Source: Halichondria panicea (taxonomy: Eukaryota > Porifera > Demospongiae > Suberitida > Halichondriidae). From it: a DNA stretch of 64,000 nucleotides. A program made the position numbers and the translations under genes. Location of the stretch: positions 537,001 to 601,000 of the forward strand of contig NC_087390.1 of NCBI RefSeq assembly GCF_963675165.1, read 5' to 3'. The notes beneath the pieces are model-generated. The model was given only the letters and a program-made list of their open reading frames with translations. It was not told where the DNA came from and did no database searches. Positions 7,422 through 63,957 of the stretch are shown here, piece after piece. The first letter of the stretch is position 1. Every line of letters starts with the position of its first letter.

Positions 7422-10400
7422 CTACCAAATAAACACAATTCTTCGTCTGACATCAACGTACTCGGGACATGTGACAATGTTCTTTTTTGTATTCCTAGAA
7501 GTTCCGAATTCTTTCAGTGTTTTGTTTTCCAACAGCCCCCTGACAATTTGGGAGTAGTCGGTGATCTCAGCATTGAGGTGAAACACCTCTAGAGTCTTGT
7601 TCTTGGCTAACACATTACCGACAGCTTCAGCCTCTTCAGTGGTATCAGTGTACGGTATAAAATCTGAAACGTACAGACGGAGTATTAGGTGTTTAACTGT
7701 ATTGTTTTCTCCCAATGCTTCCAAGGCGGGTAGTAGCTCCATTGGCAACGACGTATCAACCCAATGTAGTTCAATAAATTGTAGAGTTGTATTAAGTTGA
7801 AACATTTGGGCCAGTCCTAAATAATCAAGCGGTTCACCATAACTCATAATAATAGGTGAAATAGTTAGCTTAGTTAGACTTGTGTTAACTTGCAGTCCCT
7901 GCATTAAATGACTCGGGCTACTTTTGAAATTCCTATAACACAGTGTCAATTCCTCTAGAGATGTGTCAGTCTGTAGACACTCACCAATAGCTTCATCAAA
8001 ATCGCAGTCAAGGTTACATGTAAGTTCAAGGCTTTTAATGGAATGTAATCGATTGTCTTTGAGAGAACGTAAAACTTCACAGGCATTATCAAGACATAAC
8101 AAAGTTAGTGATTGCAAGTGCTGGGGGGTACAGAAATATTCAAATTGGCCCATTTCACTTTGGATATCGAGTTCTTTAAGTATCGGACAATTGAGTAGAG
8201 TACTAAAAAGCTGCTCAGATTGTGCGGGGGTCAAGTTAACACGGGAAGAGCATCGCAGATATTGTAAGCTTAGTTTCCAGTGGCTTAATATTGAAATTAA
8301 GTTTCTGATACTAGACTCTGAAAAAACCTCATTGTCTGTTGAAAATATTCTTTTTGCTTCGTTATCGGTAAACGAATGTTCAAACAGTAAATGTGGTAAG
8401 ATTTTCGTGTTGTTCCTTTTTAACTCAGTCACGTTCAATCCAATTGAAATACACCAATTATAAGCATCTGTGATGGGTAAGTCAATAATAGAAATTGCTT
8501 GTACAGCAATAGGATCTTGTACCAAATGTATCACCAACATTTCAATACTAGAATGTGCAATGAAGTCAGACAACAACTCTTCATCAACTGGCGATACTTG
8601 AGCACATTTCAAAACTTTCAAGCAGTGTTTTGGCTTCAAAATATCAAGTATTCGTATCACAGTGTCTCTTGAGATGCCAAAATCTAGCTCTACAACACTT
8701 AAGTTTGGAGATAGCTGTATAGTGTCAAATATTTTTAATACACATGGAACCTCAGGCCCAACAAATTCATTGTCAATAATATTACTGATAGTGACTCTTT
8801 CTAATTCTGGTAGTATCCTATCAGTGAGTGTATGCCAAGCAGATGGAATCTTGAATGTGGTAGACATTTTCAGATGGCTTACACTTAGAGTAAAAGAAGG
8901 CAAAACTTTGTTGATTCCTGCTAATATCATTGATCTATCCACATTATACACATTGTCATTAAACTCGAACATGTCCATTAGAGTTACTTTGAAATGAGCA
9001 GACGCTACAACATAACCAAGTGCAAACTGATCAATATCATCCTCATCATTTAGCGGTGGTTCATACAGCACATTACAATACAAGTCCTTCATGGCTTGCA
9101 CATTTTGGCTTTCATAGATCCACAGAATTTGATCACTTGAGAATTCACACATTCTCTCGGCTTTTGATGATCCTTCCTCATAGTAGTACAAGTAATTCGG
9201 AGTTGGAAGTACACACTGTGTCCATGGGTCATTCAGTTTAGTCAATCCAGCTAAAAACAATAAAATCATCTTGTATGATCCATCATTAGCCTTCGTTTCA
9301 AACAAAATAAATTGCTCGTGTGGGGTGTTATTTTTCCAGACGTAAAATGCAGCGAGGAACTCTTGAAGTGTTAGATGAAGGAAATTGTAAGATGGAGAAC
9401 TGTTTCTTTTCATTATGGATTTATATAAAGGATATACACTGTTCATGAATCCAAGTGTAGTGCTAGCATCAGCAATATCTTCTTTGAAGAAAACCAACTG
9501 TTGTTTTTCTTTCGTTATTCCATTGTACGCAATTTGGCAGAGCTTATCAAAATGTACCTGAAGTGACGAAGGTAACTCACTCAGCTCACCACTCCAATCA
9601 CTCTCTGGTTTGTCATGCAAATATCTTATAATCAAAACTTGAGAGTATGCAGTGTATAGTTCAGTTGTTGTGTTAGGAAAGATGCTATTGCTTTCGTCGT
9701 GGCATTCTCTGTAAACTTCAACTACAATTCTGGCATGAAGAGGGTTATACATTGCACTAGAGATACGTGGATTAGAGTCAATGTATTCACGTAGTTCTGG
9801 TGGAGCCCCATCTTTAATCATTAGATCAATATACTCAAGAATTTTTTCTGAAGAAAATCCCAAGATTTCAATGAATTGATCAATTCTTGAACTACACTGA
9901 GTAGCAGGTAGATCACATGCCGCCCAGGGTCTAGTAGTAACAAGAACAGTACAACTAGAAAGAAGGTCTCCGGTTATTAGTTTCATAAAAATAGAATCTT
10001 TTTGTCTAAGGAATGGTGGTAACTCATCTAGGCCTTCCAAAATGAAAAGAATACCGTGCCCATGATGATTTTGTATGGTAGTAGTAGCAACAACATTTTC
10101 AGAAGCATCAATATTTTCACATTGAAATAGATCAACTAATTCTACAGCTTCCTGAACATTCTTATCTCGAAGTCGGAGCAATACAACGAGGGAGTAATCT
10201 GTCCAAACCTTACCATTAGCCCATTGTCTGCACAGTTCCCATGACAAAGTCGTCTTACCTCCTCCAGGAGCCCCTTTAATTACAATTAGCTTAGAGAACT
10301 TGCCCTCTACTTTGGAAGCTATCTGGTCCATTGTAATTCTCTCTCTAGGAAATCTATGCAGCTTGCCTTGAACTATTAGTGACCAAGACTTTTCCATTTC

Positions 10401-13400
10401 CTTTCTTGATAAATGTTTACTTACATCCGCACATTCTAGCTTAACAAAGTCTTTAACACACTGGAGAGGATATTTGTCATCAGCAGGGAGGGATCTTGTA
10501 TCGTAAATACTAGTTAAGTATGCTCGATAAATTCCTATTGCTTCATCTGGTTGAATGATGGAACGAATATCGGATTTGGATTCTATAATAATAGAATCAT
10601 CATGAAGCAAAGTTAAGGCCCTTCAATAAAGTAATTATAAACGTATAAAGTGTGGATACACATACCTCTCTAAATAGGAACTATCCCCCAAACTTTCTTA
10701 CATGATAAAGCGTACAGATATGTGTCTTTTATCCATCACTGTACACACAAACTAATAATAATTATTATGTAAGGCAATTCACTCACTGGTTGGTTCACGA
10801 GTCGTTGTAGACAATTTTTGCTTCTGAGATGGCCCAAGCGAAGTATGGTCATCTGAAAGTAAGTAATTGTTTGCATGGTAAAATACTGTTTTTGAGTATT
10901 TTTCAATGCTGGTGGCTGTGTCCTCTTTTCCCAGACTGCGGACAATAGTTAGAAGTGCTTGAAATGTCGCTTCTTTGGGTTTCCTTCTCTTCCAGTACTT
11001 CAAGCATAGATGTACTGCAATTTGTGTGCCCTCACTGGCTTTTGCTCGCGTTACATCACCGTTTTCATGAGGGTTTAGTGATATTGCGGCAGCAAGAAGT
11101 GTAGCACTATCAAAATAAGCAGCCAAATGAATCAGATCTTCATCTTTTATCACCGTATCTAGCATTGAATTTCCCAAGCTTTCTGTGAATCCAGCACCAC
11201 CTAATGAACAATATTATCTTTCACAGAGTCAGTATAATTATATATTATTATTATGTCATGTATCACAAATAATAATGCAGGTTTGGTACAGCGTTGTGCT
11301 ATAATACGGTAGGCACATATAAATAAATGATAAACCAAAACACAAATGGAAACAAAACATTCAATAATTGACCCTCCAAACTATTCTACCGCAATAGATT
11401 CAGCGTTACTATCCTGAGCTGTACGAATATTTAAAACACGAAAATTAATATTAAAAATAATGAGTATTTCATACGAATTTGCACCAACGAATATTACTCG
11501 CTATATAGCTATATACGGTAGGTACACTAAGTCTACTTGCTGAACTACGTACACTATAGTAACAATTGTAGAAATTATGGTAACTAATTATGATAATGGG
11601 CAATGGTGACCGAAGCTATTAAGATCAATGCCCGTGGTTCCATATTAATTTTATCAAGTAATATAAGAAATAATTGCAAGCCCTCCAAACTAAATAAATA
11701 CAGTACCACTCCAAATAAAGCTGTGCTTCCATCCCAGTACATAAACAATGTATAGCAATCTTTCAAAGGTGCATGTCTTTTATTCTATCTATCACCACTC
11801 ACACAAACTACCGATTAGCTAACTCACTGGTTGGTCCAGGAGTTGTTGTGGACAATGCTTGCCTCATAAATGGCCCAGGTGGAGTATCGTCATCTGAAAG
11901 TAAGTAATATTATTGTTTGCTACACAATGGACTGAAGTACAATAGTACTCCATCAGTTACATTCCTGACTAGGCTGGTAAACTATCCATTCATATACAAC
12001 TTCCATCAATACAAACTACCGATTAGCTAATTAAGGTGATTCACTCACTGGTTGGTTCAGGATTCATTGTAGACGTATTTGTTTTAGATGGCCCAGGTGA
12101 AGTATCGTCAACTGAACGTAAGTAATTGGATACTATATAATTATATACAAAAGTACATAATTATAGTAGTATACCTGATGTGGTCAACTACGTATATACC
12201 CATGCGTTCACATACCTAAGTCTATCCATAGAAATGCTTATAGTGTGGTCGAGGTTAGCCTCATCACTATTCATACCTGTACATGCCTTCTCTATAGCCT
12301 CAGCGACATCATTCCGTTCAACTGTTGGTGCTCTGAGACTCTGACATATTTCAGAATAGGTGAGAAGGCCAGTCTTCAAGCGAACAGCCAGCACTTCACA
12401 TAGACGAATTTGATTATCTCGATGTTTATCGCTGATATTATTAAGGGTGTCAAAACCTAATCCCAGATCAAGTCCCAGGTTGAACCAGTTTCCAGCGGCT
12501 TTTATCAGGTTCTTGTAAACAGAATTCAAATCATCGAGAGTAAGAATTGAGCCTACAAAAATTACCAGTGAATGGTAAGTGAATGGCACACACATGGTTT
12601 AAGCATACTCTATAAAAAACTGACAGCAGTTTGTACAAAGAGACTGCTTACCAAGCGTTGGTCCAGGGTTTGCTTCAACATCTCCTGACTGTAACAGTAA
12701 GCGGAATATCAGTAACAGTATATACAGACTGAGAGTGGGGGGCCGATTAGAGCTCTGAACTCTCACTTGGAACTGGGTCGGCTTTTCTTGAGTATCAAAA
12801 ACTAAAAAACACGAGTGACGTTTATAATTATTGTGGCAGTAAATATTCATTTGATTACCTGATGTGGTTGAGTTCCATTGTTTCCGAGGGTTCCATCTCA
12901 CCAAGCAGGCAGTGATGAGTGAGTAGCAGGTGATAAGCACAGCTGACAGAATGAGAACGGTCAGTGCACTCCCCCTCCATCCCAGCTCACAAGGAAACAC
13001 TCCGGTCCAACTCAAGTCAACCACAGGGCAAACAGGACGTGGGGGAGCTGTGTAGAGTTACATAAATATATTCATGTGCGGTGACATCACAATTGTGGTC
13101 ATGACTCCGTGAATACCAAGAATGCACTAATGCCTACTGTATAGCGGGTAATCTTCGGGGGACAAAATATTTGTGGTTCAGGAATAATTATTAAGACATT
13201 TCGTAGGTAATATTTTCGTGGTTGAACTTGCAAAGGTAGGCAAGGTCGCTTCATTCATGGATAAAATATTCATTCAGGCCTTCAACCACGGAAAACCAAA
13301 AATATTTTGTCCCACAAAAATCACCCTCTATATGGTATTTAAAACTGACCCTTTAAGTATAATTACATTGTGGCCTATGCCCCGTATAATAATTATGCTC

Positions 13401-14484
13401 TGTATAGTCGAGTAAGCGCTAATAATTCAGTTTCTACGGTAGACTACTACAAACTAGCACAGTGACACTCTCTAGCTTCCTAGATCTCTGTTGACCAGTA
13501 AGCAGTGCACCAAGAATGCTTCCACCTCTGTATGCAAGAGTAAAACATACAATTAACTTTTCTTCTTCATTCGCCACGTGATACAATAAACCCCGAAGTA
13601 GCCACACCCAGATTGGCATAAGCACCTACAATATAAAGCTGGAGTAGTGTCCATATTATATTTTCTACACATAAAGTTCGGTACTGCAAAACATTCAATT
13701 GAGTAAACTGTGGTCTGTTCTGGGAAGTATTGCTAATTAGTATACTGATGACTATCAAGTGGTGACCAATACAGGGCAAATTCTGTTACGTACTGTAGTT
13801 TAACACTTTTACTCTTATCTACTCTTGACTATAAATACACATGTAGCTGTAACTTAGTCTCATGGACCAGCCGATATATCATATCGTCTAGCAAATTACA
13901 CATGAGCTACTTGTGTTGTGCAGCTGTCTAAGTGACTGTTTGCATTGATAAGTGGTTAGTGGTTAGAGGACGGATGTGAAACCATATAATTAAAGCTAAG
14001 CCTGCAGCTGTGCAGTTTCACAACTTACTACAGTCAAACACTTATCAACCACTTAGAGCGCCACGACATTTGTGGCACGGTCAACACAACTCTGTACGGT
14101 GAAATTGGCCAGACTCTCTTTCAGGGTTTGGGTCAGCGAGACTATAGCTGTAACTTTCCTCTAAGTACACATAATTATAGTTATATGTTATGTGGCCTAT
14201 GCCTCGTAAATGCTCGGTATAATTATACCAAATTAAAATGTATGATAAGAAATGTTATGCAATTATTGGTGAGTATGCTTCACTGACTTACAGGAAAAAG
14301 TTTGTAAGAAGAGTATGTATCTGATGGTGACCATAATGAGGTAGAGTTGGTAGAGGACAGGGGTGATCAACACAGAGGCAAGGCTGGCTCTGAGCTGCCA
14401 ACTAGGCTTACGGAAAACCAGGGTAACATCGTCGTCCAAATCATTTGAGAAATAACGGGCATGTCTCTGAGATGTCATCTTCAT
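7422..14484 (-). CDS. NLR-A: 2A leader, Death, extra Death, NACHT, LRR receptor
   Basis: Exons (minus): 14484-14292, 13047-12859, 12801-12652, 12552-12277, 12111-12049, 11893-11828, 11200-10787 and 10582-7422. They sum to 4512 nt, giving 1503 residues; every junction is phase 1 with GT-AG. Residues 1-174 form a hydrophobic leader ending in GDVEANPG/P. Next come a Death domain (exon 4), two proline-rich linker exons (DDTSPGP, DDTPPGP), a second Death-like module, then NACHT. NACHT has Walker A GAPGGGKTT, Walker B LFILEGLDEL and a sensor-like VLVTTRPWA. The C-terminal half is LRR-like (SVVELDFG, LKELDIQSE, SLEELTLCY, TLEVFHLNA). NLRs of this kind are predicted intracellular pattern sensors that oligomerise through NACHT and signal through Death domains; ligand unknown. 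The model is intact. Confidence 0.87.
10787..11200 (-). other. NLR-A-specific exon with a second Death-like domain
   Basis: This 414-nt phase-1 exon begins GGAGFTESLGNSMLD. It carries a helical Death-like pattern (AVHLCLKYWKRRKPKEATF, ALLTIVRSLGKEDTA) and ends in the same proline-rich tail as the linker exons (SLGPSQKQKLSTTT). No counterpart exists in copies B, C, D or F at the equivalent place. The Death assignment rests on the characteristic W-containing helix and the terminal LxxLGxxDxA pattern, so it is probable rather than certain. Confidence 0.7.
12659..12685 (-). other. 2A ribosome-skipping motif of NLR-A
   Basis: The codons read GDVEANPGP, the exact DxExNPGP consensus. They follow a leucine-rich run (LLLIFRLLLQS) as in active 2A sequences. 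The established mechanism is failure of the Gly-Pro bond with continued translation. The leader would end in ...NPG and the NLR would begin with Pro. Confidence 0.9.
13135..13337. mobile_element. MITE of the TAGCGGGTAA family in NLR-A intron
   Basis: The ends TACTGTATAGCGGGTAA (left) and the degenerate inverse near CCCTCTATATGGTA (right) enclose about 200 bp. Internal words such as AAAATATT and CCACGG are also inverted. The same end sequence is found at 52541-52749 and 56558-56746. It lies in the exon 1-2 intron and is absent from the other NLR copies. Confidence 0.7.
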
Positions 14485-14990: not shown

Positions 14991-15774
14991 TTATTTCAGC
15001 CATGGTCTATTGGCACCGTAATTGTCCTCTCTAGCTTTAGTTCTTCTCTGTAGGGACTTGAGAAGTTCATCATGTGGTGAGGGTGCTGCCACCTGATTGG
15101 ACGACGTAGAGTTGCCATGCTTACGTAATGTGTTACGTCTGTAGTTGGCCGGTCTGTATGCAGTGTTCTTCATACCTGTATATAGTACAAGCACAAGAGC
15201 GGCCGATGAATTCAGAATTGGTACACTGTCATGTCTGTAGTAGCATGCATGCAAATCTATACTATAGTTCAGTAGTTACAGAAGACAAAATAACCCAGGG
15301 CCAAATCTACACCTAAAAAATGTGCACGCTGCTCAGTAAACTTCAGACTACCAAACTATACACATTCTCAAACAATGAGCCTATACAAGTGGTTACACAC
15401 AAGTACTGACAGTAGCCAATCAACTGACCGGAAATGATCTCTTCAATAGCTCCGTCGTAGATCTGAGGCAGTACGTCCACACCCTGATCATCCTGTACAC
15501 ACAAGCAAGCAGGTTCTCAGTTAATATATAGACAGACAGAACATTCTCAGTTGATATTTAGACAGCAAGTGATTATTATTCCAGAGATATTCTTATACCA
15601 GGAGAGGGTGTTGTTTACCTCTGATAAGGAAGTGTCATCCACGCAAGGTAATACACACAGTTGCTATAATGGGGGAATGAGAGAATGTGTTAACAGAATG
15701 ATTGATGTACGCTCTTGTGATATACTTACAGCTTGTCTGATGGCTATCTTGGCAAGGTTGTCACTGTCTGCTTT
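14991..15774 (-). CDS. Last three exons of an unrecognised gene
   Basis: Three well-spliced exons: 15774-15730, 15492-15429 and 15175-14991 (45+64+185 = 294 nt, divisible by three). They read KADSDNLAKIAIRQA, DDQGVDVLPQIYDGAIEEIIS and GMKNTAYRPANYRRNTLRKHG..., ending ...NYGANRPWLK-stop. The C-terminus is basic and low in hydrophobics, suggesting a soluble or nucleic-acid-associated protein. I do not recognise the family. Earlier exons are not in the window: upstream lies the cyclophilin fragment on the same strand. In the paralogous block at the window start the first of these exons has been deleted. It could be a truncated passenger rather than a live gene. Confidence 0.55.
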
Positions 15775-22100: not shown

Positions 22101-24169
22101 TATTTGTCATCAGCAGGGAGGGATCTTGTATCGTAAATATTAGTTAAGTATGATCGATAAATTCCTATTGCTTCATCTGGTTGGATGGTGGAACGATTAT
22201 CGGACTTGGATTCTACAGTATAAAAGAATAATCATGAAGCAAAGGTAATAATACAGTGGAATCTTCAATAATGGGCCCTCCAAACTAAGTAAACAGTGAG
22301 AAATACAACAAATAGGACTGCGCTTCCACCCCCACACTTTCAGTCTTACATGAACAAATGCAGCAATCCCTGAGATGTGTCCTTTTCTCAATCACCGTGT
22401 ACACATACAAACTACCGATTAGCTAACTCACTGGTTGGTTCAGGAGTCGTTGTGGACAATTTCTGCCTCTTAGATGGCCCAGGTGAAGTATCGTCATCTG
22501 AAAGTAAGTAATTGGATGCTATAGTATTGACTGGAGTACATAGTATTACGTTCGTGTTGTAGTAAAATTATTCATTACACTAAGTACTCATAGAACATGG
22601 TCGTAAGTTAGGCTCATCATTATTCATACCTGCACATGCATATGCCTCCTCAATAGCTACAGCGACATCATTCCGATCAACTGTTCGTGCTCTGAGACTC
22701 TGACATATGTCAGAATAAGTGAGAGGGCCAGTCTTCAAACGAACAGCTATCATTTCACGTAGACAGTCCTTATTCCTGTGATAGTCATCTTTTATATCAT
22801 CAAGGGTGCCATGACCTAATCCCAGAGCGAGTCCCAGGTTAAACCAGTTTCTTGCCGCTTTTATAACTTTCTCATAAACAGATTGCAAATCACTGAGCAT
22901 CAGAATTGAACCTACGCAGTAAATGGCAAGTTCTGTCATTTAAACTAATACTATATCATCATAATCATAAGGAGACACCCTCTTACCAAGCGTTGGTCCA
23001 GGGTTTGCTTCAACATCTCCTGACTGTAACAGTAAGCGGAATATCAGTAACAGTATATACAGACTGAGAGTGGGAGGCCGATTAGTGCTCTGAGCTCTCA
23101 CTTGGAACTTGATCGGCTTTTCTTGAGTATCAAAAACTAGAAAGTAAGAGTGACGTTTATAATTATTGTGGCAGTAAATATTACCTGATGTGGTTGAGTT
23201 CCATTGTTTCCGAGGGTTCCATCTCACCAAGCAGGCAGTGATGAGTGAGTAGCAGGTGATAAACACAGCTGACAGAATGAGAACGGCCAGTGCACTCCCC
23301 CTCCATCCCAGCTCACAAGGAAACACTCCGGTCCAACTCAAGTCAACCACAGGGCAAGCAGGACGTGGGGGAGCTGTGTAGAGTTACATAAATATGATAT
23401 TCATGTGCTGTGACATCACAATTTTGGGTTATGAGATTCCGTGAATACCAATTAAGCAATACACTAATGGCTGTTTCCTTAAGTGTAATTGTAGCCCGTA
23501 ATATGAGTAGAGTACAAGGGAGTATTATGAGACCTCTATAAAATTAATGTTTCTGACTTGCAGTAATCAGCTAAATAGCCTGTTCACTAACTACTGTATG
23601 GTCAATAGGCTTTGCATGTAAGCAAAAAAAATTAGTGACAGTGCTTTGTTTACAGCTAAATAAATGCTAGCATTTAGTGGTATGGTCAATAGGCTTTGCA
23701 CAAAATATTATATGCCTATATAATTCTGCCTGTATACAGTTTTAACAAATACCTAATGAATTTTACTTGGCACCCACACTTAAATTTGTTAACAAACTGT
23801 TGTGATATCTCTGTCAACACAAGCATACAACTACAAATTTCTTTTGGAAAAAATACTAGAGTTAATATATAAGAGACTATTAAGAATAGCTGAAGCACTT
23901 CTCATAATTGGTTCTGTCTCTACTCTATGACAAGAAATGTTATGCAATTATTGGCGAGTATGCTTCACTGACTTACAGGAAAAAGTTTGTAAGAAGAGTA
24001 TGTATCTGATGGTGACCATAATGAGGTAGAGTTGGTAGAGGACAGGGGTGATCAACACAGAGGCAAGGCAGGCTCTGAGCTGCCAACTAGGTTTATGGAA
24101 AACCAGAGTAACATCATCGTCCAGATCAATTGAGAGATAACGGGCATGTCTCTGAGATGTCATCTTCAT
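19113..24169 (-). pseudogene. NLR-B: 2A leader, Death, NACHT-LRR with frameshifts
   Basis: Exons: 24169-23977, 23373-23185, 23136-22987, 22911-22630, 22497-22432 and 22212-19113. The leader ends in GDVEANPGP. Death reads SVYEKVIKAARNWFNLGLALG... SLRARTVDRNDVA. The NACHT exon has two frame breaks against the other copies. Near 22000 one base is gained just after ESWSLI (AATAAGTT for AATAGTT), stopping the frame ahead of Walker A. Near 19717 two bases are lost (ATGTAATTAAGG for ATGTAAGTTCAAGG), splitting the LRR. The NACHT motifs between the breaks are intact (GAPGGGKTT, LFILEGLDEL, VLVTTRPWA). As read, translation would give only leader, Death and linker, so a short Death-only product is conceivable. 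Confidence 0.85.
22994..23020 (-). other. 2A motif of NLR-B
   Basis: GDVEANPGP is perfectly kept in a copy whose NACHT exon is frameshifted. The upstream LLLIFRLLLQS run is unchanged. Confidence 0.88.
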
Positions 24170-29431: not shown

Positions 29432-32400
29432 TTAAAATGATCGAAATGGTTGTGTATCTATAAACACAATTCTTCGTCTGACATTAACGAACTCAGGACA
29501 TGTGACAATGTTCTTTTTTGTATTCTCAGAAGTGCCGAATTCTTTCAGTGTTTTGTTTTCCAACAGCCCCCTGACAATTGGGGAGCACTCATTGATCTCA
29601 GCAGTGAGGTGAAACACCTCTAGAGTCTTGTTCTTGGCTAACACATTACCGACAGCTTCAGCCTCTTCAGTGGTAACAGTGTATGGTGTATACTCAAAGT
29701 AATTAAACGGTGTATACTCAACGTAATATATACCTGTTGTTGCACCATGAGTGATTAGTGGAACATACAAACAGAGTTTCAGGTGTTTAACTGTATTGTT
29801 TTCTTCCAATGCTTCCAAGGCGGGTAGTAAATCCATTCGCAACTGCATATCAACCACAAGTTCAATAAATTGTAGAGTTGTATTAAGTTGAAACATTTGG
29901 GCCAGTTCAAGCGTTCCGATATCATAATCTGAGTCCATACTATAAGTTTGAAGTGACATTGTTAGCTTAGTTAGACATGTGTTAACTCGCAGTCCCTGCA
30001 TTAAATGATTCGGGCTACTTTTGGAATCATAATGCAGTGTCAATTCCTCTAGAGATGTGTCAGTCTGTAGATACTCACCAATAGCTTCATCAAAATGACA
30101 GTCAGGGTGACATGTAAGTTCAAGGCTTTTAATGGAATGTAATCGATTGTCTTTCAGAGAACGTAAAACTTCACAGGCATCATTATTAGGACAATCCAAA
30201 GTTAGTGATTGCAAGTGCAGGGGGATACAGAAATATTCAAATTCGACGTTTGTTCTCGTTTGGATATCGAGTTCTTTGAGTATCGCACAATTGAGTAGAG
30301 TACTGAAAAACTGCTCAGATTGTGCGGGGGTCAAGGGAAGTTCGAAAGAGCATCGCAGATATTGTAAGCTTAGTTTCCAGTGGCTTAATATTGAAATTAT
30401 ATCTTCTATTGGAAACATTTCGTTTGAGTCATTAAAGATAACCAAATGTTCAGACAGTACGATTTTTTTGTTATTCCTTTTTAACTCAGTCACGTTCAAT
30501 CCAATTGAAATACACCAATTACCAGTATCTGTGATGGGTAACGCAAGATAAGGCGCTTGTACCAAATGTATTACCAACATTTCAATACTAGAATGTGCAA
30601 TGAAGTCAGACAACAACTCTTCATCAGCTGGCGATACTCGAGCACACTTCAAAACTTTCAAGCAGTGTTTTGGCTTCAAAATATCAAGTATTCGTATCAC
30701 AGTGTCTCTTGAGATGCCAAAATCTAGCTCTACAACACTTAAGTTTGGAGATAGCTGTATAGTGTCAAATATTTTTAATGTACATGGAACCTCAGGCCCA
30801 TCAAATTTAACGTCAATATCTCCTGATCTTCGATTACCGATAGTGACGCTTTCTAATTCTGGTAGTATCGTATCAGTGAGTGTATGCCAAGCAGATGGAA
30901 TCTCGAATGTGGTAGACATTTTCAGATGCCGTACACTTAGAGTAAAAGAAGGCAACACTTTGTTGATTCCTGCTAACATCATTGATCTATCCACATTACG
31001 GTCATTAAACTTGAACATGTCCATTAGAATTACTTTGAAATGAGCAGAAGCTACAACATAACCAAGTGCAAACTGATCAATATTCGGATCACGTAGCAAT
31101 GGTTCATACAGCACATTACAATACAAGTCCTTCATGGCTTGCACATTTTGGCTTTCATAGATCCACAGAATTTGATCACTTGAGAATCTACACGTTCTCT
31201 CGGCTTTTGACAATCCTTTCTTATAGTACACATGAGGAGTTGGAAGTACACACTGTGTCCATGGGTCATTCAGTTTAGTCAACCCAGCTAAAAACAATAG
31301 AATCATCTTGTATGATCCATCATTAGCCTTCGTTTCAAACAAAATAAATTGCTCGTGTGGGGTTTTATTTTTCCAGACGTAAAATGCAGCGAGGAACTCT
31401 TGAAGTGTTAGATGAAGGAAATTGTAAGATGGAGAACTGTTTCTTTTCATTATGGATTTATATAAAGGATGTACACTGTTCATGAATCCAAGTGTAGTGC
31501 TAGCATCAACAATATCTTCTTTGAAGAAAACCAACTGTTGTTTTTCTTTCGTTATTCCATTGTACGCAATTTGGCAGAGCTTATCAAAATGTACCTGAAG
31601 TGACGAAGGTAACTCACTCAGCTCACCACTCCAATCACTCTCTGGTTTGTCATGCAAATATCTTATAATCAAAACTTGAGAGTATGCAGTGTATAGTTCA
31701 GTTGTTGTGTTAGGAAAGATGCTATTGCTTTCGTCGTGGCATTCTCTGTAAACTTCAACTACAATTCTGGCATGAAGAGGGTTATACATTGCGCTAGAGA
31801 TACGTGGATTAGAGTCAATGTATTCACATAGTTCTGGTGGAGCCCCATCTTTGATCATTAGATCAATATACTCCTGAATTTCTTCTGAAGAAAATCCCAA
31901 GATTTCAATGAATTGATCAATTCTTGAACTACACTGAGTAGCAGGTAGATCACATGCCGCCCAGGGTCTAGTAGTAACAAGAACAGTACAACTAGAAAGA
32001 AGGTCTCCGGTTATTAGTTTCATAAAAATAGAATCTTTTTGTCTAAGGGATGGTGGTAACTCATCTAGGCCTTCCAAAATGAAAAGAATACCTTGCCCAT
32101 GATGATTTTGTATGATAGTAGTAGCAACAACATTTTTAGAAGCATCAATATTTTCACATTGAAATAGATCAACTAATTCTACAGCTTCCTGAACATTCTT
32201 ATCTCGAAGTCGGAGCAATACAACGAGGGAGTAATCTGTCCAAACGTCACCATTAGCCCATCGTCTGCACAGTTCCCATGACAAAGTTGTCTTACCTCCT
32301 CCAGGAGCCCCTTTAATGACAACTAGTTTAGAGAATTTGCCCTCTACTTTGGAAGCTATTTTGTCTATTGTGATTGACTTTCTAGGAAATCTATCCAGCT

Positions 32401-34832
32401 TGCCTTGAACTATTTTTGACCAGGAATCTTCGATTTCCTTTCTCGATAAATGTTTACTTACATCCGCACATTCTAGGTTAACAAAGTCTTTAACACACTG
32501 GAGAGGATATTTGTCATCAGCAGGGAGAGATCTTGTATCGTAAATACTAGTTAAGTATGATCGATAAATTCCTATTGCTTCATCTGGTTTGATGGTGGAA
32601 CGGTTATCTGACTTGGGTTCTACAGTATAAAGAATAATCATGAAGTGAAGGTAACAATACAGTGGAATCTTCAATAATGGACCCTCCAAACTAAGTAAAC
32701 AGTGAGAAATACAACAAATAGGACTGCGCTTCCACCCTCAAACTTTTAGAGTCTTACATGAACAAATACAGCAATCCTTGAGATGTGTCCTTTACTCTAT
32801 CACCACTCACACAAACTACCGATTAGCTAACTCACTGGTTGGTCCAGGAGTCGGTGTGGACAATTTCTTCTTAGATGGCCCAGGTGAAGTATCGTCATCT
32901 GCTATAATTATATATACAATTGACTGAAGTATACATAAAGATAATATAAGTGTTCGTGACGAGGTGGACTATCCATTCACATAGTTAAGTGCTGTTGACT
33001 ATTCATAGAAATGCTTATAGTGTGGTCTATATTGCTAGTAGCCTCACAATTGTCCTACATATCTAAGTTACGTTCCCGGCTTTAGGCTGCGGTATACTGC
33101 ATAGAAATGCTGGTCAAGGTTAGCCTCATGACTATTTATACCTGTACATGCCTTCTCTATAGCCTCAGCGACATCATTCCGATCAACTGTTGGTGCTCTG
33201 AGACTCTGACATATGTCAGAATAGGTGAGAGGGCCAGTCTTCAGGCGAGCAGATATCATTTCACGTAGACAATCCTTGTTCCTGCGATACTCATCTTTTA
33301 TATCTTTGAGGGTCCCAGGATCTAATCCCAGATCAAGTCCCAGGTCGAACCAGTCTCCAGCAGCTTTTATCAAGTTCTTATAAGCAAGATTCAAATCACC
33401 GAGAGTCAGAATTGAGGCTACAAAAATTACAAGCAAATAATAAGTACACAATGTTATACACGTGGTTCGTATATGTTCTGTGATGAGCAACTTGTATTAA
33501 TAATTATATACATACACATGGTTTAGACGGCTTACTAAACGTTGGTCCAGGGTTTGCTTCAACATCTCCTGACTGTAACAGTAAGCGGAATATCAGTAAC
33601 AGTATACACAGACTGAGAGTGGGGGGCAACATCAGTCGATTAGTGCTCTGAACTCTCACTTGGAACTTGGTCGGCTTTTCTTGAGTATCAAAAACTAAAA
33701 AGTAAAAGTGATGTTTATAATTATTGTGGCAGTAAATATATAATTGATTACCTGATGTGGTTGAGTTCCATTGTTTCCGAGGGTTCCATCTCACCAAGCA
33801 GGCAGTGATGAGTGAGTAGCAGGTGATAAGCACAGCTGACAGAATGAGAACGGCCAGTGCACTCCCCCTCCATCCCAGCTCACAAGGAAACACTCCAGTC
33901 CAACTCAAGTCAACCACAGGGCAAGCAGGACGTGGGGGAGCTGTGTATAGAGTTACATACATAATGATATTCATGTGCTGTGACATTACAATTGGTAATG
34001 GGTCATGAGATTCCGTGAATAGCAATTAAGCAATACACTAATGGCTGTTTCCTTAAGTGTAATTGTAGCCCGTAATATGAGTAGAGTACAAGGGAGTATT
34101 ATGAGACCTCTACAATTAATGTAGTTAATGTCTGACTTGCAGTAATCAGCTAAATAGCCTGTTCACTAACTACTATAATTATGGTCAATAGGCTTTGCAT
34201 ATAAGCAAACAAATTAGTGACAGTGCTTTGTTTACAGCTAATGCTAGTATTTAGTGTTTAAAGTGGTTTGGGTATTGAGACAGGGGGGTATTACTGACAC
34301 CATTGCTAGTAATTAATTTAAACCCTAATTGGCTGTTCTAACATAATATCTGATAATAAAATAATTATAGTGATTATTCTGCCAATATACAGTTTTAACA
34401 TTAATACCTAATGAATTTTACTTGGCACCCACACTTAAATTTGGTCAATTAACAAACTGTTGTGGAATCTCTGTCAACACAAGCATACAACTCAAAATTT
34501 CTTTTGGAAAAAAATACTAGAGTTAAATTATTAATAAGACTATTAAGAATAGCTGAAGCACTTCTCATAATTGGTTCTGCCTCTACTCTATGACAAGAAA
34601 TGTTATGCAATTATTGGTGAGTATGCTTCACTGACTTACATGAAAAAGTTTGTAAGAAGAGTATGTATCTGATGGTGACCATAATGAGGTAGAGTTGGTA
34701 GAGGACAGGGGTGATCAACACAGAGGCAAGGCAGGCTCTGAGCTGCCAACTAGGTTTATGGAAATCCAGGGTAACATCATCGTCCAGATCAATTGAGAGA
34801 TAACGGGCTTGTCTCTGAGATGTCATCTTCAT
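29432..34832 (-). CDS. NLR-C: 2A leader, Death, NACHT, LRR receptor (intact)
   Basis: Exons: 34832-34640, 33940-33752, 33694-33536, 33417-33142, 32898-32836 and 32619-29432. They total 4068 nt (1355 residues), all phase-1 junctions. Leader: hydrophobic stretch in exon 1 (VLITPVLYQLYLIMVTIRY), a second in exon 2 (LAVLILSAVLITCYSLITA) and a third directly before GDVEANPGP. Exon 3 has three extra residues (LML) near the third stretch. The Death domain reads AYKNLIKAAGDWFDLGLDLG. NACHT has GAPGGGKTT, LFILEGLDEL and VLVTTRPWA. The LRR ends in a unique insertion with the doubled word EYTPFNYFEYTPY. The final residues IDTQPFRSF also differ from A and D. Proposed role: cytosolic immune sensor released from a membrane leader by 2A. 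Confidence 0.88.
33543..33569 (-). other. 2A motif of NLR-C
   Basis: GDVEANPGP directly follows a leucine-rich hydrophobic run. The next residues are TF instead of TLG, from a changed donor (TTTA then GTAAGC). Confidence 0.9.
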
Positions 34833-43200: not shown

Positions 43201-45195
43201 ATGTTTACTTACATCCGCACATTTTAGGTTAATAAAGTCTTTAACACACTGGAGAGGATATTTGTCATCAGCAGGGAGGGATCTTGTATCGTAAATACTA
43301 GTTAAGTATGATCGATAAATTCTTATTGCTTCATCTGGTTGGATGGTAGAACGATTATCAGATTTGGAATCTACAGTATAAAAGAATAATCATGAAGCGA
43401 AGGTAATAATACAGTGGAATCTTCAATAATGCATGGGCCCTCAAAACTAAGTAAACTGTGAGAAATACAACAAATAGGACTGCGCTTCCACCCCCAAACT
43501 TTCAGAGTCTTACATGAAAAAATGCAGCAATCCCTGAGATGTGTCCTTTACTCTATCACCATGCACTCACACAAACTACCGATTCGCTAACTCACTGGTT
43601 GGTCCAGGAGTCGTTGTGGACAATTTCTGCCTCTTAGATGGCCCAGGTGAAGTACCATCATCTGAAAATAAGTCTATTAAACAATTGTGTATTTAAGTAC
43701 ATAATTTACGTACGTTCGTGACTAGGTTATAAACTATCCATTCACATAATTATACTCATAGAAATGCTTTTAGCATGGTCGTAAGTTAGCCTCAATACCT
43801 GTATATTCCTTCTCTATAGCTTTAGCGATGGCATCTCGTCTAACTGTTGGTGCTCTGAGACTCTGACATATTTCAGAATAGGTGAGAGTGGCAGTATTCA
43901 AGCGAGCTGCTAGCATTTTCCGTAAACAGGTTTCATTATCTCGATGTTCATCACCAATATTATCGAGGGTGTCGGGGCTTACTTTCAGCTTAAGTCCCAG
44001 GTTGAACCACTTTTTGGCGGCTTTTATCAATTTCTCGTAAACAGATGGCAAATCATTGATAGTCAGAATGGTGCCTATACAACAATTACAAGCAAATGAT
44101 AAGTGCAATGTGCAATGTCAACACATGGCTTATACATGCACACTCTATGAAATAGCTGACGAGCAACTTGTATTATATACGCATACATAAAGAGACACTG
44201 CTTACTAAACGTTGGTCCAGGGTTTGCTTCAACATCTCCTGATTGTAACAGTAAGCGGAATATCAGTAACAGTATATACAGACTGAGAGTGGGGGGCCGA
44301 TTAGAGCTCTGAACTCTCACTTGGAACTGGGTCGGCTTTTCTTGAGTATCAAAAACTAAAAAGTAAGAGTGACGTTTATAATTATTGTGGCAGTAAATAT
44401 ATAATTGATTACCTGATGTGGTTGAGTTCCATTGTTTCCGAGGGTTCCATCTCACCAAGCAGGCAGTGATGAGTGAGTAGCAGGTGATAAGCACAGCTGA
44501 CAGAATGAGAACGGCCAGTGCACTCCCCCTCCATCCCAGCTCACAAGGAAACACTCCGGTCCAACTCAAGTCAACCACAGGACAAGCAGGACGTGGGGGA
44601 GCTGTGTAGAGTTACATAAATATATTCATGTGCTGTGACATCACAAGTGTGGGTCATGAGATTCCGTGAATACCAATTAAGTAATACACTAATGGCTGTT
44701 TCCCATTAATTATGAGTAGAGTACAAGGGAGTATTATGAGACCTCTATAAAATTAATGTTTCTGACCAATTAATGTCAGCTAAATAGCCTGTTCACTAAA
44801 CCATAAATATTCATGTGCTATATTCATGTGCTGTGTCATCACAAGTGTGTGTCACGAGATTCCGTGAATACCAAGCAATGCTGTTTAAAACTGACCTTTA
44901 TATTATAATGTGGCCTATGCCCCGTAATATGCTCTGTATAATACCAAAGTGTATGATAAGAAATGTTATGCAATTATTGGTGAGTATGCTTCACTGACTT
45001 ACAGGAAAAAGTTTGTAAGAAGAGTATGTATCTGATGGTGACCATAATGAAGTAGAGTTGGTAGAGGACAGGGGTGATCAACACAGAGGCAAGGCTGGCT
45101 CTGAGCTGCCAACTAGGCTTAGGGAAAACCAGGGTAACATCGTCGTCCAGATCATTTGAGAAATAACGGGCATGTCTCTGAGATGTTATCTTCAT
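40225..45195 (-). CDS. NLR-D: 2A leader, Death, NACHT, LRR receptor (intact)
   Basis: Exons: 45195-45003, 44601-44413, 44355-44206, 44074-43799, 43661-43596 and 43370-40225. They total 4020 nt (1339 residues), all phase 1. The Death exon is the most diverged of the array (VYEKLIKAAKKWFNLGLKLKV, RDAIAKAIEKEYTG). The NACHT exon opens DSKSDNRSTIQPDEAI, with GAPGGGKTT, LFILEGLDEL and VLVTTRPWA. It is a mosaic: up to Walker B it resembles copies A and C (ENIDASKNVVATTIIQNHH). From sensor 1 onward it resembles B and F (LLPASTVLVTTRPWAVCD, ENHENSNSIIPNTTTELY). The LRR-like repeats end in IVFIWWYV. Function as for NLR-C. Confidence 0.88.
44213..44239 (-). other. 2A motif of NLR-D
   Basis: GDVEANPGP with the leucine-rich run before it, identical to the other copies. 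Confidence 0.9.
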
Positions 45196-52793: not shown

Positions 52794-53096
52794 CTTTGTA
52801 TTTCTCCTCGATTTTATCAGCAAGATTGATTTGTTTGACAGTGTCACTTCTGAGGCCATTGCAAATGTCACTCCATGTACGAGAAGGTGAGTACTACAAC
52901 CAGTGGGTCAGCATTTCACGCAAGCGATCTTGGTCGTTGCTTTCATTAGATTTGATGGCTTTGAGTGTGCCAACTTGAATTCCCAAAGAGAGCCCCAAAT
53001 TAAACCAACTAGTAACAACCTCCATCAAGTTTGAAAACACTTCTTGCAAGTCTCTAGTGCATAATTGATTTTCACACCCATGATCATCCTCGTTGC
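52794..53096 (-). pseudogene. Isolated Death-domain exon with a stop codon
   Basis: A 303-nt phase-1 exon flanked by ATATAG and GTGAAT. It reads GNEDDHGCENQLCTRDLQE, then ...VVTSWFNLGLSLGIQVGTL..., ...DRLREMLTHWL, then ...WSDICNGLRS...LADKIEEKYKG. This is a Death domain distantly related to those of the NLRs. An in-frame TAG lies at 52896-52894, between THWL and YSPSR. No partner exon with NACHT or another domain was identified nearby, so it is probably the relic of a different Death-domain gene. Confidence 0.75.
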
Positions 53097-55788: not shown

Positions 55789-58700
55789 TCACTGCATGGT
55801 TGGTCCAGAAGACAATTTTGGCGTCTTAGATGGCCCAGGCGAAGTATCATCATCTGCATGAAAGTATAAAGATGGTACATGTATAATAGGATGGCAATTG
55901 GATGCTATAATTATAGTATCTAGTTTTACGTTCCTGACTATAGACTGTGGTCAATAATCCATTCACATGTCTCTAAGCTGCATGATGTCTACTCATAGAA
56001 ATGTTTATATAATGTGGTCGAGGTTAACCTATTCTCACCTGTAAATTCCTCCTTTATAGCATCAGCGAGGGCATCTTGTCTAACTGCTGGTGCTCTGAGA
56101 CTCTGACATATTTTAGAATAGGTGAGATTGGCAGTCTCCAAGCAAACAGTTAGCATTTCACGTAGATAGTCCTTGCTCTTGCGATAGTCTTGTTCTATAT
56201 TTTTGAGGGTTCCAGAATGTAATCCCAGGGCAAGTCCTAGTTCCTTCCAGTTACCAGCGACTTTGATCAGTTTCTCATTAACAGACCCCAAATCATCGAG
56301 AGTCAGAATGGAGCCTTTTTATAGGTACAATGGGATACATGCATGTGGTTTTACTATATGAAATAGCTGATAAACTACTTGTATATGCATATATATAGGA
56401 GACATCTGCTTACCAAGCGTTGGTCTTCCTGACTCGTCTTTTTTGTCCTCTTTTTTTCTCTTAACACCAATTATGGTTGATGGTTTGGACTCTTAAAATA
56501 TTTGTAGACGTAGAGTATAATTATTATAGTTGAAATGCTAACTATAATTTATAGTGTTACTGTAATATAGCGGGTAATTTTCGTTGGTGAAAAATGAACT
56601 ACCCAATTAAATAGTTCGTAATCTAAATATTCGTACAGCTCTTGGGGTAGAATAATTTCGCAGTTTTAATTTTCGTATGATGCTCTTCAATACGAAATGT
56701 ATATACCATCTTACGAAAATAACCCGCTACTGATATACATACGGTATAATATATGGCATGATTTGTACAGCTATATAGACGATACAGAATCCACATAGTA
56801 AGACGCTCCATTCCCTCATGTGCTCCTGACGATAACAAGAGTTTATTATAGGAAGAGTACGCAAATCCAACCATATATTATAGTATGGGGGAAATTCTGT
56901 ACATTTAGAACTCAAAATTAGCTATGTGTACAGTAATAACAAGGCCGTAGCAAACAAGTTTAGAGTTGTCAGGCCAACGGTAAATTTTGCTAAAAAAAAC
57001 GTTAACTACTTTACTAATCGATTACAATATTGACGACCTTTACCAGGAAACCATCAGGCATTTTCAACAATGTGACGACCATTACCTACTTAGGTCCAAA
57101 AAGTGGTAAGGCTAAAACTGACCAGCCTGACCGCTTGCTATGGCCTTGAATAATTGTGCAATCCACGTTTTTGCATGTTATAGTACTGGATTTGGACCTA
57201 CGTACATTCTAACACTCAGATTACCCGGTTTCATATTTTATATAATTATGTATCAAATCGAGGGTAGGTAGGTGTATAGAGCAATATAATTATACTTAGT
57301 CGCATGTGATTAAGGTTGCATTACTAATAGAAAGATTTGTAACACCTGTTAGCACACATCTATTATGATGTTTTACATGCATTAATCGACAGTACATAAC
57401 TTGGGTTCTCTTTGGATAACACAGCAGCTATACTATATAGGTTTTCAATGAAATAATTATACGTATACAGTGACAGTATAGCTATAAAACACACAAAATC
57501 AACTCACGTGGAAGAGTACTTTGGAGGTCTAGATCAATAGTGGTGAATTGGAAGGGATCCTTTGCACCCAATAGATTGACTTTGTGTGACAGCTTTGGAG
57601 CAGATTTCCTGCGTTTGTTGGTAATCTCGGCTTTCAAGTGGCAGTGCGGAATTCTCTGTCCTGGCTTGAACTGATCAACATTCTTCTTGATGACCTAATA
57701 GAGATGATGTAATTCTGTATAATTCTACAGAAAAGTTATATTATACAAATAATTTAGTCTCGCACCAGCCCCGATTAAAAATAGGGTCTGGAGAACTTCC
57801 TATCAACGAGTTGTGCAAGTGATAGTAAATAGTGGTCACAAATAAAATTATTCATGGTTGATGACCACATTGTGGTTACAATAATGTGAAAACCACAGTT
57901 CTGCAAATAAATTTATATGTACAGTATAGTTGAGAGTCCTCGGTGCTCAGTGCTCAAATCAGGATGAATCTACACATGCAAGAAGGAGAGAAGCTATAGC
58001 AACTACTCAGAGTCACTAGAAAGATCTAGACTGAGTTTAAACCAGGCATGTTATGTTTCAAGGTTCTCAACAATGGCATGGATTCAGTTCTCAGAGAAAA
58101 AGATGCAAATCAAATCTTATTTGCAGTACTGCCACTTGAATATGGAATGCTGGTTTCAGGTATAGATGTAGTACTAGTAGGAGACATCCTTGAAGCTAAT
58201 TATCTACAACTCAGCTCTTGCTTCTGTACAACTACCCATGGAACTTCTCTCTCTTTGTGATCTTCTGGGATAGTCTTAGGGCATAAATAAGCCATTATAT
58301 TGTCAGTTGCATTTAGCTAGAAACTGTAGCAAGTTGGGCAACAAGAGGCTGCTTTGCATAACTATCTTTCCTTCTTTTTGCCTCCAGTTGACCGCAGCGG
58401 TTAACACGCCGAGAAATCTTCGGCGTGTCAACACAACTTGTACATAGGAAGTTCACCAGACCCATTATCGACCTAGGGTTCAAATAGAAAACATCCGGGG
58501 CTGGCTGTGCGAGACTACAAATAATTATGCCTACCGTAGGATGAAACATTGGCGTTATTTTCCATCCTCCTTTGACTTTAGTACCGTCAATAGGAATATC
58601 CAGTGTTATCCTGTCCCCCTCGAACTCAACAAAATGATTCACTCCGAGAATGGCTTCTTTAGTGGAGTACTTCTCACTCACAAACTGCAGTGAAACAATA

Positions 58701-60833: not shown

Positions 60834-63133
60834 TACACATATATATAAGGAGTTGGAAGTACACACTGTGTCCATGGGTCATTCAGTTTAGTCAATCCAG
60901 CTAAAAACAATAGAATCATCTTGTATGATCCATCATCAGCCTTTGTTTCAAACAAGAGTAACTGGTCGTGTGGGGTTTTATTTTTCCAGATATAAAATGC
61001 AGCGAGGAACTCTTGAAGTGTTAGATGAAGGAAATTGTAAGATGGAGAACTGTTGCTTTTCTTATGTAAAGGATGTACACTGTTCATGAATCCAAGTGTG
61101 TTAGCATCAACAACATCTTCCTTGAAGAAAACCAATTGTTGTTTTTCTTTTGTTATTCCTTTGTACGCAATTTGGCAAGGCTTATCAAAATGTTCCTGAA
61201 GTGATGAAGGTAACTCACTCAGCTCACCACTCCAATCATTCTCTAAACATCTTTTAATCAAAATTTGAGAGTATTCGGTGTATAGTTCAGTTGTTGTGTT
61301 GGGGATTATGCTATTGCTATTCTCATGGTTTTCTCTGTACACTTCAACTACAATTCTGGCATGAAGAGGGTTATACATTGCACTAGAGATACATGGATTA
61401 GAGTTAATGTATTCACGTAGTTCTGGTGGAGCCCCATCTTTGATCATTAGATCAATGTATTCTTGAATTTGTTTGGAAGAAAAACCTAAGATTTCAATGA
61501 ACTGATCAACTCTTGAGCTACAAGTAACAGGTAGATCGCATACAGCCCAGGGCCTAGTGGTAACAACCACGGTACTAGCTGGCAGAAGACGTCCGTCTAT
61601 TAGTTTCTTAAATATAGAGTCATTTTCTCTAAGAGATGGTGGCAACTCATCCAGTCCTTCCAAAATGAAAAGTATGCCCTGCCCATGATTCTTTCGGATA
61701 ATAGCATAAATATTTTTGGAATAATCAGTATCTTCACATTGAAATAGATCAACTAATTCTACAGCTTTCTGAACATTCTCATCTCGAAGTCGGAGCAATA
61801 CAACGAGGGAGTAATCTGTCCAAACTTTACCATTAGCCCATCGTTTGCAAAGTTCCCATGACAAAGTCGTCTTACCTCCTCCAGGAGCCCCTTTAATGAC
61901 AACCAGTTTAGAGAATTTGCCCTCTACTTTGGAAGCTATCTGGTCCATTGTGATTGACTCTCTAGGAAATCCATCCAGCTCGCCTTTAACTATTTCTGAC
62001 CAGGATTCTTCAATTTCCTTTCTTGATAAATGTTTACTTATACATCTGCACATTCTAGATTAACAAAATGCTTAACACACTGGAGAGGATATTTGTCATC
62101 AGCAGGGAGAGCTCTTGTATCGTAAATACTAGTTAAGTATGATTGATAAATTCCTATTGCTTCATCTGGTTGGATGGTGGAACGATTATCGGATTTGGAT
62201 TCTACAGTATAAAAGAATAATCATGAAGCGAAGGTAATAATACAGTGGAATCTTCAATAATGGGCCCTCCAAACTAAGTAAACTGTGAGAATTACAACAA
62301 ATAGGACTGCGCTTCCACCCCCAAACTTTCAGAGTCTTACATGAACTAATGCAGCAATCCCTGAGATGGGTCCTTTACTCTATCACCACTCACACAAACT
62401 ACCGATTAGCTAACTCACTGGTTGGTCCAGGAGTCGTTGTGGACAATTTCTTCTTAGATGGCCCAGGTGAAGTATCGTCATCTGCTATAATTATATATAC
62501 AATTGACTGAAGTACATAAAGATAATAATATAAGTGTTCGTGATGAGTTGAACTATCCATTCACATAGTTAAGTACTGTTGACTATTCATGGAAATGCTT
62601 ATAGTGTGGTCTATATTGCTAGTAGCCTCACAATTGTTCTACATATCTAAGTTACGTTCCTAGCTTTAGGCTACGGTATACTGATATTTATCAATAGAAA
62701 AGGTCAAGGTTAGCCTCATGACTATTCATACCTGTACATGCCTCCTCTATAGCCTCAGCGACATCATTCCGTGCAACTGTTGGTGCTCTGAGACTTTGAC
62801 ATATGTCAGAATAGGTGAGAGGGCCAGTCTTCAAGCGAGCAGATATCATTTCACGTAAGCAGTCCTTGTTCCTGTGACACTCATCTTTTATATCTTTGAG
62901 GGTGCCAGGATCTAATCCCAGATCAAGTCCCAGGTCTAACCAGTCTCCAGCAGCTTTTATCAAGTTCTTGTAAACAAAATTCACATCACCGAGAGTCAGA
63001 ATTGAGCCTATAAAAATTACAACCAAATGATAAGTACACATGGTCATACACATGGTTTATGCAAGCATGTTCTCTGAGGAGCAATGTCATTGTGTATATT
63101 ATGTATCATAAGGAGACACCGCTTACCAAGCGT

Positions 63134-63160
63134 TGGTCCAGGGTTTGCTTCAACATCTCC
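63134..63160 (-). other. 2A motif of NLR-F
   Basis: GDVEANPGP with the leucine-rich run before it; the leader exons are fully open. Confidence 0.88.
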
Positions 63161-63957
63161 TGACTGTAACAGTAAGCGGAATATCAGTAACAGTATATAC
63201 AGACTGAGAGTGGGGGGCCGATTAGTGCTCTGAGCTCTCACTTGGAACTTGATCGGCTTTTCTTGAGTATCAAAAACTAGAAAGTAAGAGTGACGTTTAT
63301 AATTATTGTGGCAGTAAATATATAATTGATTACCTGATGTGGTTGAGTTCCATTGTTTCCGAGGGTTCCATCTCACCAAGCAGGCAGTGATGAGTGAGTA
63401 GCAGGTGATAAGCACAGCTGACAGAATGAGAACGGCCAGTGCACTCCCCCTCCATCCCAGCTCACAAGGAAACACTCCGGTCCAACTCAAGTCAACCATA
63501 GGGCAAGCAGGACGTGGGGGAGCTGGGTAGAGTTACATAAAATTAATATATTCATGTGATGTGACATCACAATTGTGGTCATGAGATTCCGTGAATACCA
63601 AGCAATGCTGTTTAAAACCGACCTTTATATTATAATTATGCAGATTATATGATGTAGCCTATGCTTTGTAATATGCTCCGTATTAATATGCTCGGTATAA
63701 TTATACCAAAGTGTATGATAAGAAATGTTATGCAATTATTGGTGAGTATGCTTCACTGACTTACAGGAAAAAGTTTGTAAGAAGAGTATGTATCTGATGG
63801 TGACCATAATGAAGTAGAGTTGGTAGAGGACAGGGGTGATCAACACAGAGGCAAGGCTGGCTCTGAGCTGCCAACTAGGCTTAGGGAAAACCAGGGTAAC
63901 ATCATCGTCCAGATCATTTGAGAGATAACTGGCATGTCTCTGAGATGTCATCTTCAT

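Follow-up and report, generated by a model that had tools for sequence, protein, structure and literature searches.

The window analysed here is a 64-kb stretch of the sponge Halichondria panicea (contig C14:537001-601000 of a 131.5-Mb, 39-contig genome). It contains the motif GDVEANPGP in frame at exactly five sites, all on the minus strand, one in each of genes A, B, C, D and F (12659-12685, 22994-23020, 33543-33569, 44213-44239 and 63134-63160, respectively), which confirms the five exact copies of the original prediction. The sixth NPGP of the window lies on the plus strand at 15292, where the rest of the motif is absent. The motif is found at the 3' end of an exon of 150-159 nt (the 2A exon, leader exon 3), which is followed by a short intron and then by a Death-type exon. 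Each of gene A's three leader exons has five matches in the window, in order and 5' of the Death-type exon. The features, in window coordinates, are as follows.

14292..14484, minus strand: gene A leader exon 1, with the start Met (ATG), a basic N-terminus, hydrophobic segment 1 and donor GTAAGT
12859..13047, minus strand: gene A leader exon 2, hydrophobic segment 2
12652..12801, minus strand: gene A leader exon 3 (2A exon), an L-rich stretch and then GDVEANPGP; donor GTAAGC
12277..12552, minus strand: gene A Death-type exon that immediately follows the 2A exon; assigned by our own profiles, the profile of 20 such exons matching Death structures
10785..11213, minus strand: gene A second Death-type stretch (Pfam Death, 8e-6)
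7425..10622, minus strand: gene A NACHT exon, 1066 aa open (Pfam NACHT, 3.8e-19)
23977..24169, minus strand: gene B leader exon 1, match to the gene A exon
23185..23373, minus strand: gene B leader exon 2, match to the gene A exon
22987..23136, minus strand: gene B 2A exon with the motif
22643..22909, minus strand: gene B Death-type exon
34640..34832, minus strand: gene C leader exon 1, match to the gene A exon
33752..33940, minus strand: gene C leader exon 2, match to the gene A exon
33536..33694, minus strand: gene C 2A exon with the motif
33143..33415, minus strand: gene C Death-type exon
31856..32326 (C14:568856-569326), minus strand: gene C NACHT domain, 1101 aa open
45003..45195, minus strand: gene D leader exon 1, match to the gene A exon
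44413..44601, minus strand: gene D leader exon 2, match to the gene A exon
44206..44355, minus strand: gene D 2A exon with the motif
43800..44072, minus strand: gene D Death-type exon
63765..63957, minus strand: gene F leader exon 1, match to the gene A exon
63334..63522, minus strand: gene F leader exon 2, match to the gene A exon
63127..63276, minus strand: gene F 2A exon with the motif
62733..63005, minus strand: gene F Death-type exon
56040..56312, minus strand: gene E Death-type exon without an upstream leader exon or 2A, a natural 2A-less relative

A further weak match to the Death exon (40%), with a stop inside, is located at 52804-53052 of the window on the minus strand.

When exons 1 to 3 are spliced in silico they form an open leader that reaches NPG at residue 174 in genes A and D and at residue 177 in gene C, and exon matching places the exon 3 acceptors of genes B and F at the position equivalent to that of the other genes. 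The leader of genes A, C and D has three Kyte-Doolittle peaks (19 residues) at approximately residues 34-54, 96-114 and 149-169, which bears out the prediction of three hydrophobic segments in a leader of about 174 residues; segment 3 overlaps the 2A. In the genomic sequence of the window family, the exons are open and their donors and acceptors are in phase. The intron after it begins with GTAAG or GTACG in 46/46 copies and ends with the acceptor TAG in all 43 copies that have a Death exon within reach, three copies having none. In NCBI model P0063 (LOC135343203 isoform X2, H. panicea), a leader, DVETNPGP and the next stretch form one protein; this automatic model is identical to locus L100 over the shared part and belongs to a 2A family other than that of the window. 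Relatives of the leader were found neither in phage records nor among 284 viral-contig stretches matching a short pattern, in searches that may miss near records. In the public relatives P0040-P0044, exon 3 is preceded by another stretch in place of leader exon 2, which we take to resemble a piece of an EHD-family GTPase.

Judging from sequence profiles, a Death fold follows the 2A. The best match of the profile of 20 Death-type exons in the PDB had an E of 0.004, and the 15 matches with an E no higher than 0.1 were all FADD, PIDD, LRR-and-death-domain protein or CRADD. Pfam Death recognises four of the 20 exons and gives 2e-15 for L083; Pfam gave no match for the Death-type exon of gene A by itself and did not recognise two CARD-like stretches. 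An AlphaFold model built from 11 sequences (pLDDT 74) retrieved no Death match in Foldseek, so the Death assignment is one of sequence profiles, and searching the PDB with a profile of leader-containing sequences gave no information. The NLR part of the proposed identity stands for genes A and C, which supply the NACHT evidence of the window, and the Death part stands by profiles, with Pfam blank on gene A's own exon.

The 2A phenomenon is far larger than five genes. The pattern D[V/I/M]ExNPGP occurs at 116 sites in the genome compared with none for the reversed pattern, and the exact GDVEANPGP at 39 sites, again with none for its reverse; 37 of the 39 are on C14 at 0.50-1.63 Mb. Our sample of 111 copies comprises 110 of the 116 sites and L109, a D-to-N relative. 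Outside the search pattern, a G stands directly before the motif in 110/111 copies and is preceded by A, S or C in 108/111, and at least three of the four residues before the (A/S/C)G position are hydrophobic in 111/111. Since the copies are related, these counts are not independent trials; the pattern nonetheless extends across nearly all groups. Upstream 2A motifs include an L-rich class ending in (A/S/C)G before the D, and the four upstream classes tested, one of them L-rich, all supported skipping in vitro, with the L-rich member efficient, N at p12 among the active variants, and V/I and x changes tolerated (PMC12846837, PNAS 2026). The upstream residues of the sponge copies fit what would be expected of a real 2A of the L-rich class. 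The motif was also retained in searches that did not require it. A DNA search with exon 3 found D[VI]E[AV]NPGP in 39 of 40 scored copies (47 candidates) and NVEANPGP (D to N) in the remaining one, the places being compared by eye. Three protein searches with leader stretches kept [DN][VI]ExNPGP in 59 of 68 matches; inspected by eye, the other nine comprise five that run from exon 2 into the intron, two with the frame lost and two with a broken motif. Four of the public matches no longer have an intact motif or frame (P0001, P0019; P0018, P0020).

The link to Death domains is broad. Our own profiles, which were built partly from the same loci as were scored, place a Death (76) or CARD-like (10) stretch no more than 1.8 kb downstream of the motif in 86/111 copies, mostly at a distance of 57-160 nt. 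The remaining 25 comprise seven retrotransposon-like copies and 18 with no Death or CARD-like profile match; by eye, the motif runs straight into a Death-like stretch in seven of these 18 (the C12/C6/C10 group), several of the others have short fetched sequence, and one, L040, leads to a COR domain. Starting from the Death side, 150 of 543 candidate Death matches were scored, and 55 of these have a 2A 61-640 nt upstream. The other 95 have no 2A within 1 kb upstream, which indicates that the 2A is dispensable for many relatives; 52 of the 95 are on contig C1 and offer a natural comparison set. NACHT follows a 2A within 6 kb in 13 of 102 scored NACHT matches (265 candidates), and the link to NLRs is shown for 14 sites in total, gene A included; the sites with NACHT downstream include gene A, gene C and L046.

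Grouped by eye, the 111 copies comprise the C14 type, which is the window family (46 copies), the C5/C10/C13/C6 group (16), the C2 group that stands before a CARD-like stretch (11), the C1/C3/C4/C11/C12 group (8), the C12/C6/C10 group (7), the C2/C4 group (3), a three-member group with no assigned function (L047, L048, L049), the C1, C15 and C7 groups (2 each), four singles and seven retrotransposon-like copies, the CARD-like and retrotransposon-like labels also being given by eye. When 80 of the 111 leaders were compared by blastp with the 14 residues nearest the motif removed, they fell into components of 34, 23, 5, 3, 3, 3, 2 and 2 members and five singletons. Most of the leader sequence differs between families whereas the 2A is constant. 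A short WRARIGLF-like N-terminal stretch recurs, by eye, in leaders of several groups, a hint of common descent for some of them. A hydrophobic stretch of at least 1.6 is found in the last 30 residues of 67/104 non-retrotransposon copies and 2/7 retrotransposon-like copies, and an additional one further upstream in 42/80, so an obvious membrane leader is not present in every copy.

Several smaller groups have features of their own. L047 and L048 (C16:2.73-2.74 Mb) and L049 (C17:4.085 Mb) have mutually related leaders and carry the motif inside long open frames, two of them with 206-213 aa before it and 605-713 aa after it; domain searches of these three gave only sub-threshold Pfam matches (Transpos_assoc, bZIP_1) and nothing clear in NCBIfam. 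In the C7 group (L087 and L099; C7:4.93-4.95 Mb) the stretch after the 2A is weakly CARD-like by profile, and L087 has an astacin/matrixin metallopeptidase match further downstream. The COR-A (ROCO) domain of L040 (C11:4571341) lies about 4 kb downstream of the 2A (4.5e-11). L084 (C7:3176807) has a leader of the window type, a Death-type exon and, downstream of them, a Roc GTPase match below threshold. In the C12/C6/C10 group, one Met position would allow a short leader of the sea-urchin type (by eye). Five retrotransposon-like frames (L012, L014, L016, L028 and L041) show, by eye, a Cys-rich PHD-like pattern directly after the 2A.

The claim that a genuine 2A lies at the boundary between leader and Death domain is strongly supported by the upstream context, the several leader families, the exon-bounded conservation described below, the splice phase and the related gene model, and peptide-bond skipping at the sponge motif is very likely. 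In our preferred reading, which we consider probable, the motif is a working 2A (StopGo) that ends a membrane leader and gives free and tethered receptor pools from one mRNA. The last Gly of NPG would not be joined to the next Pro, the leader would be released during translation, and the ribosome would continue with a receptor that begins with Pro followed by its Death (or CARD-like) domain, while a minority of ribosomes would read through and produce a leader-receptor fusion. In the window family, two predicted transmembrane segments would already be out of the ribosome before the 2A decision, with segment 3 still within the exit tunnel. The fusion would most likely be membrane-tethered, its Death domain facing the cytosol, and skipping would yield a free cytosolic receptor, so that a single mRNA would supply both pools of the same sensor.

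For the window-family leader, we infer two transmembrane segments before the 2A with both leader ends cytosolic. Gene A has six Lys/Arg and four Asp ahead of segment 1, three Lys/Arg between the first two segments and another six Lys/Arg after the second. This topology is drawn solely from charge bias, with the charges counted by eye. Because positive charge lies outside both predicted transmembrane segments, the Death domain is predicted to be cytosolic and the unskipped product to be tethered rather than secreted. Incomplete skipping had been expected to tether or secrete a fraction of the receptor; the charge bias is consistent with the former, and we favour a choice between tethered and free receptor over secretion.

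It is possible, though we think it rather unlikely, that the 2A serves bicistronic co-expression instead. Skipping would then be near-complete and would supply a small two-pass membrane protein together with an equal number of cytosolic receptors, the leader being a partner of the receptor with no targeting role. Leader exons 1 and 2 contain no stop in 8 and 39 full-length copies (6 and 8 partial matches dropped), and their codon-rate ratios of 0.63 and 0.79 indicate mild purifying selection, as a partner protein would have it; the shared WRARIGLF-like stretch points the same way, as does the in vitro efficiency of the L-rich 2A that has been tested (PMC12846837). However, this purifying selection is weak, and leaders that mostly differ between families while the 2A stays constant would be odd if the leader had one specific job.

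A bolder extension of the working-2A reading starts from the report that the 2A reaction can be blocked when sequence upstream of it engages the translocon (de Felipe et al., 2010; PMC2978324). Segments 1 and 2 would have reached the translocon by the time of the 2A decision, so the balance of skipping may depend on docking. The leader could then be a membrane-docking sensor that sets the 2A outcome, and the 2A a translational guard of the secretory pathway, exon-shuffled over dozens of receptors. The decision would be taken with the ribosome either docked or undocked on the translocon: normal docking would yield the tethered unskipped receptor, whereas failed ER targeting, as in infection or stress, would let the same mRNA give free cytosolic receptor. 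We hold this proposal to be distinctly unlikely.

The conservation of the 2A exon bears on whether the motif is under selection. Among 45 window-family copies, mean identity is 0.94-0.98 in exon 3 up to the end of the motif, and falls to 0.83 in its last 7 nt and to 0.64 in the first 60 nt of intron 3. Exon 2 (0.80) is barely more conserved than its introns (0.71, and 0.77 for intron 2). In 46/46 copies the E, N, P, G and P of the motif are invariant; the amino-acid changes are V/I (42/4), A/V (44/2) and one D to N, and synonymous changes are present at the D, V and N codons. Conservation whose limits are the splice sites of the 2A exon, between diverged introns, is not explained by recent duplication alone, and the warning that perfect conservation is expected of recent duplicates is thereby largely answered. 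Within the window family, the codon-rate ratio of the 2A nonapeptide is 0.24 (42 copies). The ratios for exon 3 and the Death exon (0.67 and 0.75, from 19 and 36 full-length copies with 56 and 65 partial matches dropped) are, like those of exons 1 and 2, only mildly below 1, and codon ratios are for this reason not leaned on.

Synonymous sites are conserved too. The exon 3 core has a pS of 0.05, compared with 0.21 in the Death exon, which leaves room for exon-limited gene conversion among the roughly 45 mostly clustered copies. We regard it as very unlikely that such homogenisation, and not selection for the 2A, keeps the exon alike. Conversion tracts are not expected to stop at both splice sites, even if diverged introns could mimic such boundaries, and the motif is also kept in other leader families on other contigs. 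Exon-limited conversion may share the credit for the conservation of exon 3.

It is most improbable that the motif is a relic inherited without activity and that the leader simply anchors the receptor in the membrane. Sponge NLRs with transmembrane segments have indeed been reported as putative membrane-bound receptors, in passages that do not mention 2A (PMC12909245). Against this, the window family keeps five motif residues constant and shows exon-bounded conservation, nearly all of the 111 copies have the upstream residues typical of active 2As, and the family changes are confined to positions reported as tolerated, namely V/I, x and N for D (PMC12846837). Hardly credible, likewise, is the notion that the 2A exons were captured recently from non-LTR elements with a 2A and persist by duplication: the seven retrotransposon-like copies among the 111, five with the PHD-like pattern after the motif in a long frame, suggest that a donor may exist in the same genome, but blastp at 1e-3 found no similarity between receptor leaders and the three of their seven upstream stretches that were long enough, the introns flanking the 2A exon are 23-36% diverged while the exon is not, and what stands downstream of the gene A motif are Death and NACHT exons. 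An old retrotransposon capture is compatible with the working-2A reading.

One animal genome with 116 such sites stands in contrast to the description of 2A recoding as rare in cellular genes (PMC12846837). If the sponge motifs are active, the use of 2A by NLRs extends from echinoderm to sponge, which suggests deep ancestry or repeated recruitment, and sponge NLRs taken to be membrane-bound would have to be reread, as translation may separate them from their predicted transmembrane part. The natural variants found here, namely the D-to-N copy, the several leader families and the 2A-less gene E, make the purpose of partial skipping testable.

Non-LTR retrotransposons bearing 2A have reportedly been described by Odon and coworkers in 2013. 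They share the motif with the receptor genes, and the seven sponge copies that resemble them by eye have long frames in which no receptor domains were seen, unlike the receptor copies. A systematic catalogue of eukaryotic and viral 2As is said, by its title, to have been compiled by Rao and coworkers in 2025 and may include sponges. In the open-access literature on 2A with sponges, NLRs and eukaryotic genes, a partial coverage, we found nothing on 2A in sponge receptors. The viral StopGo/2A sequences of the L-rich class share with the sponge copies the core octapeptide, the upstream (A/S/C)G with leucines and the N variant at p12, but stand in virus polyproteins, whereas the sponge motifs belong to receptor genes with introns (PMC12846837).

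The closest precedent is the 2A signal sequences of sea-urchin NLRs. Skipping and dual targeting were described for the 26-residue 2A of a Strongylocentrotus purpuratus NLR, one mRNA giving cytosolic and exocytic products; skipping was about 80%, a qualitative value for one sequence, and 85 of 241 sea-urchin NLRs carried 2A-like motifs, many of them predicted signal sequences (Roulston et al., 2016; PMC4981915). In both systems, NLR receptors carry D(V/I)ExNPGP at the N-terminus or close to it. In the tested sea-urchin element, the 2A and the signal sequence coincide within a 26-residue N-terminus, whereas in the sponge window family it closes a 174-residue leader of three exons, occupies an exon of its own and has two predicted transmembrane segments well upstream. 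Other sponge groups, in a phylum different from that of the sea urchin, place the 2A in front of CARD-like, Roc or COR proteins.
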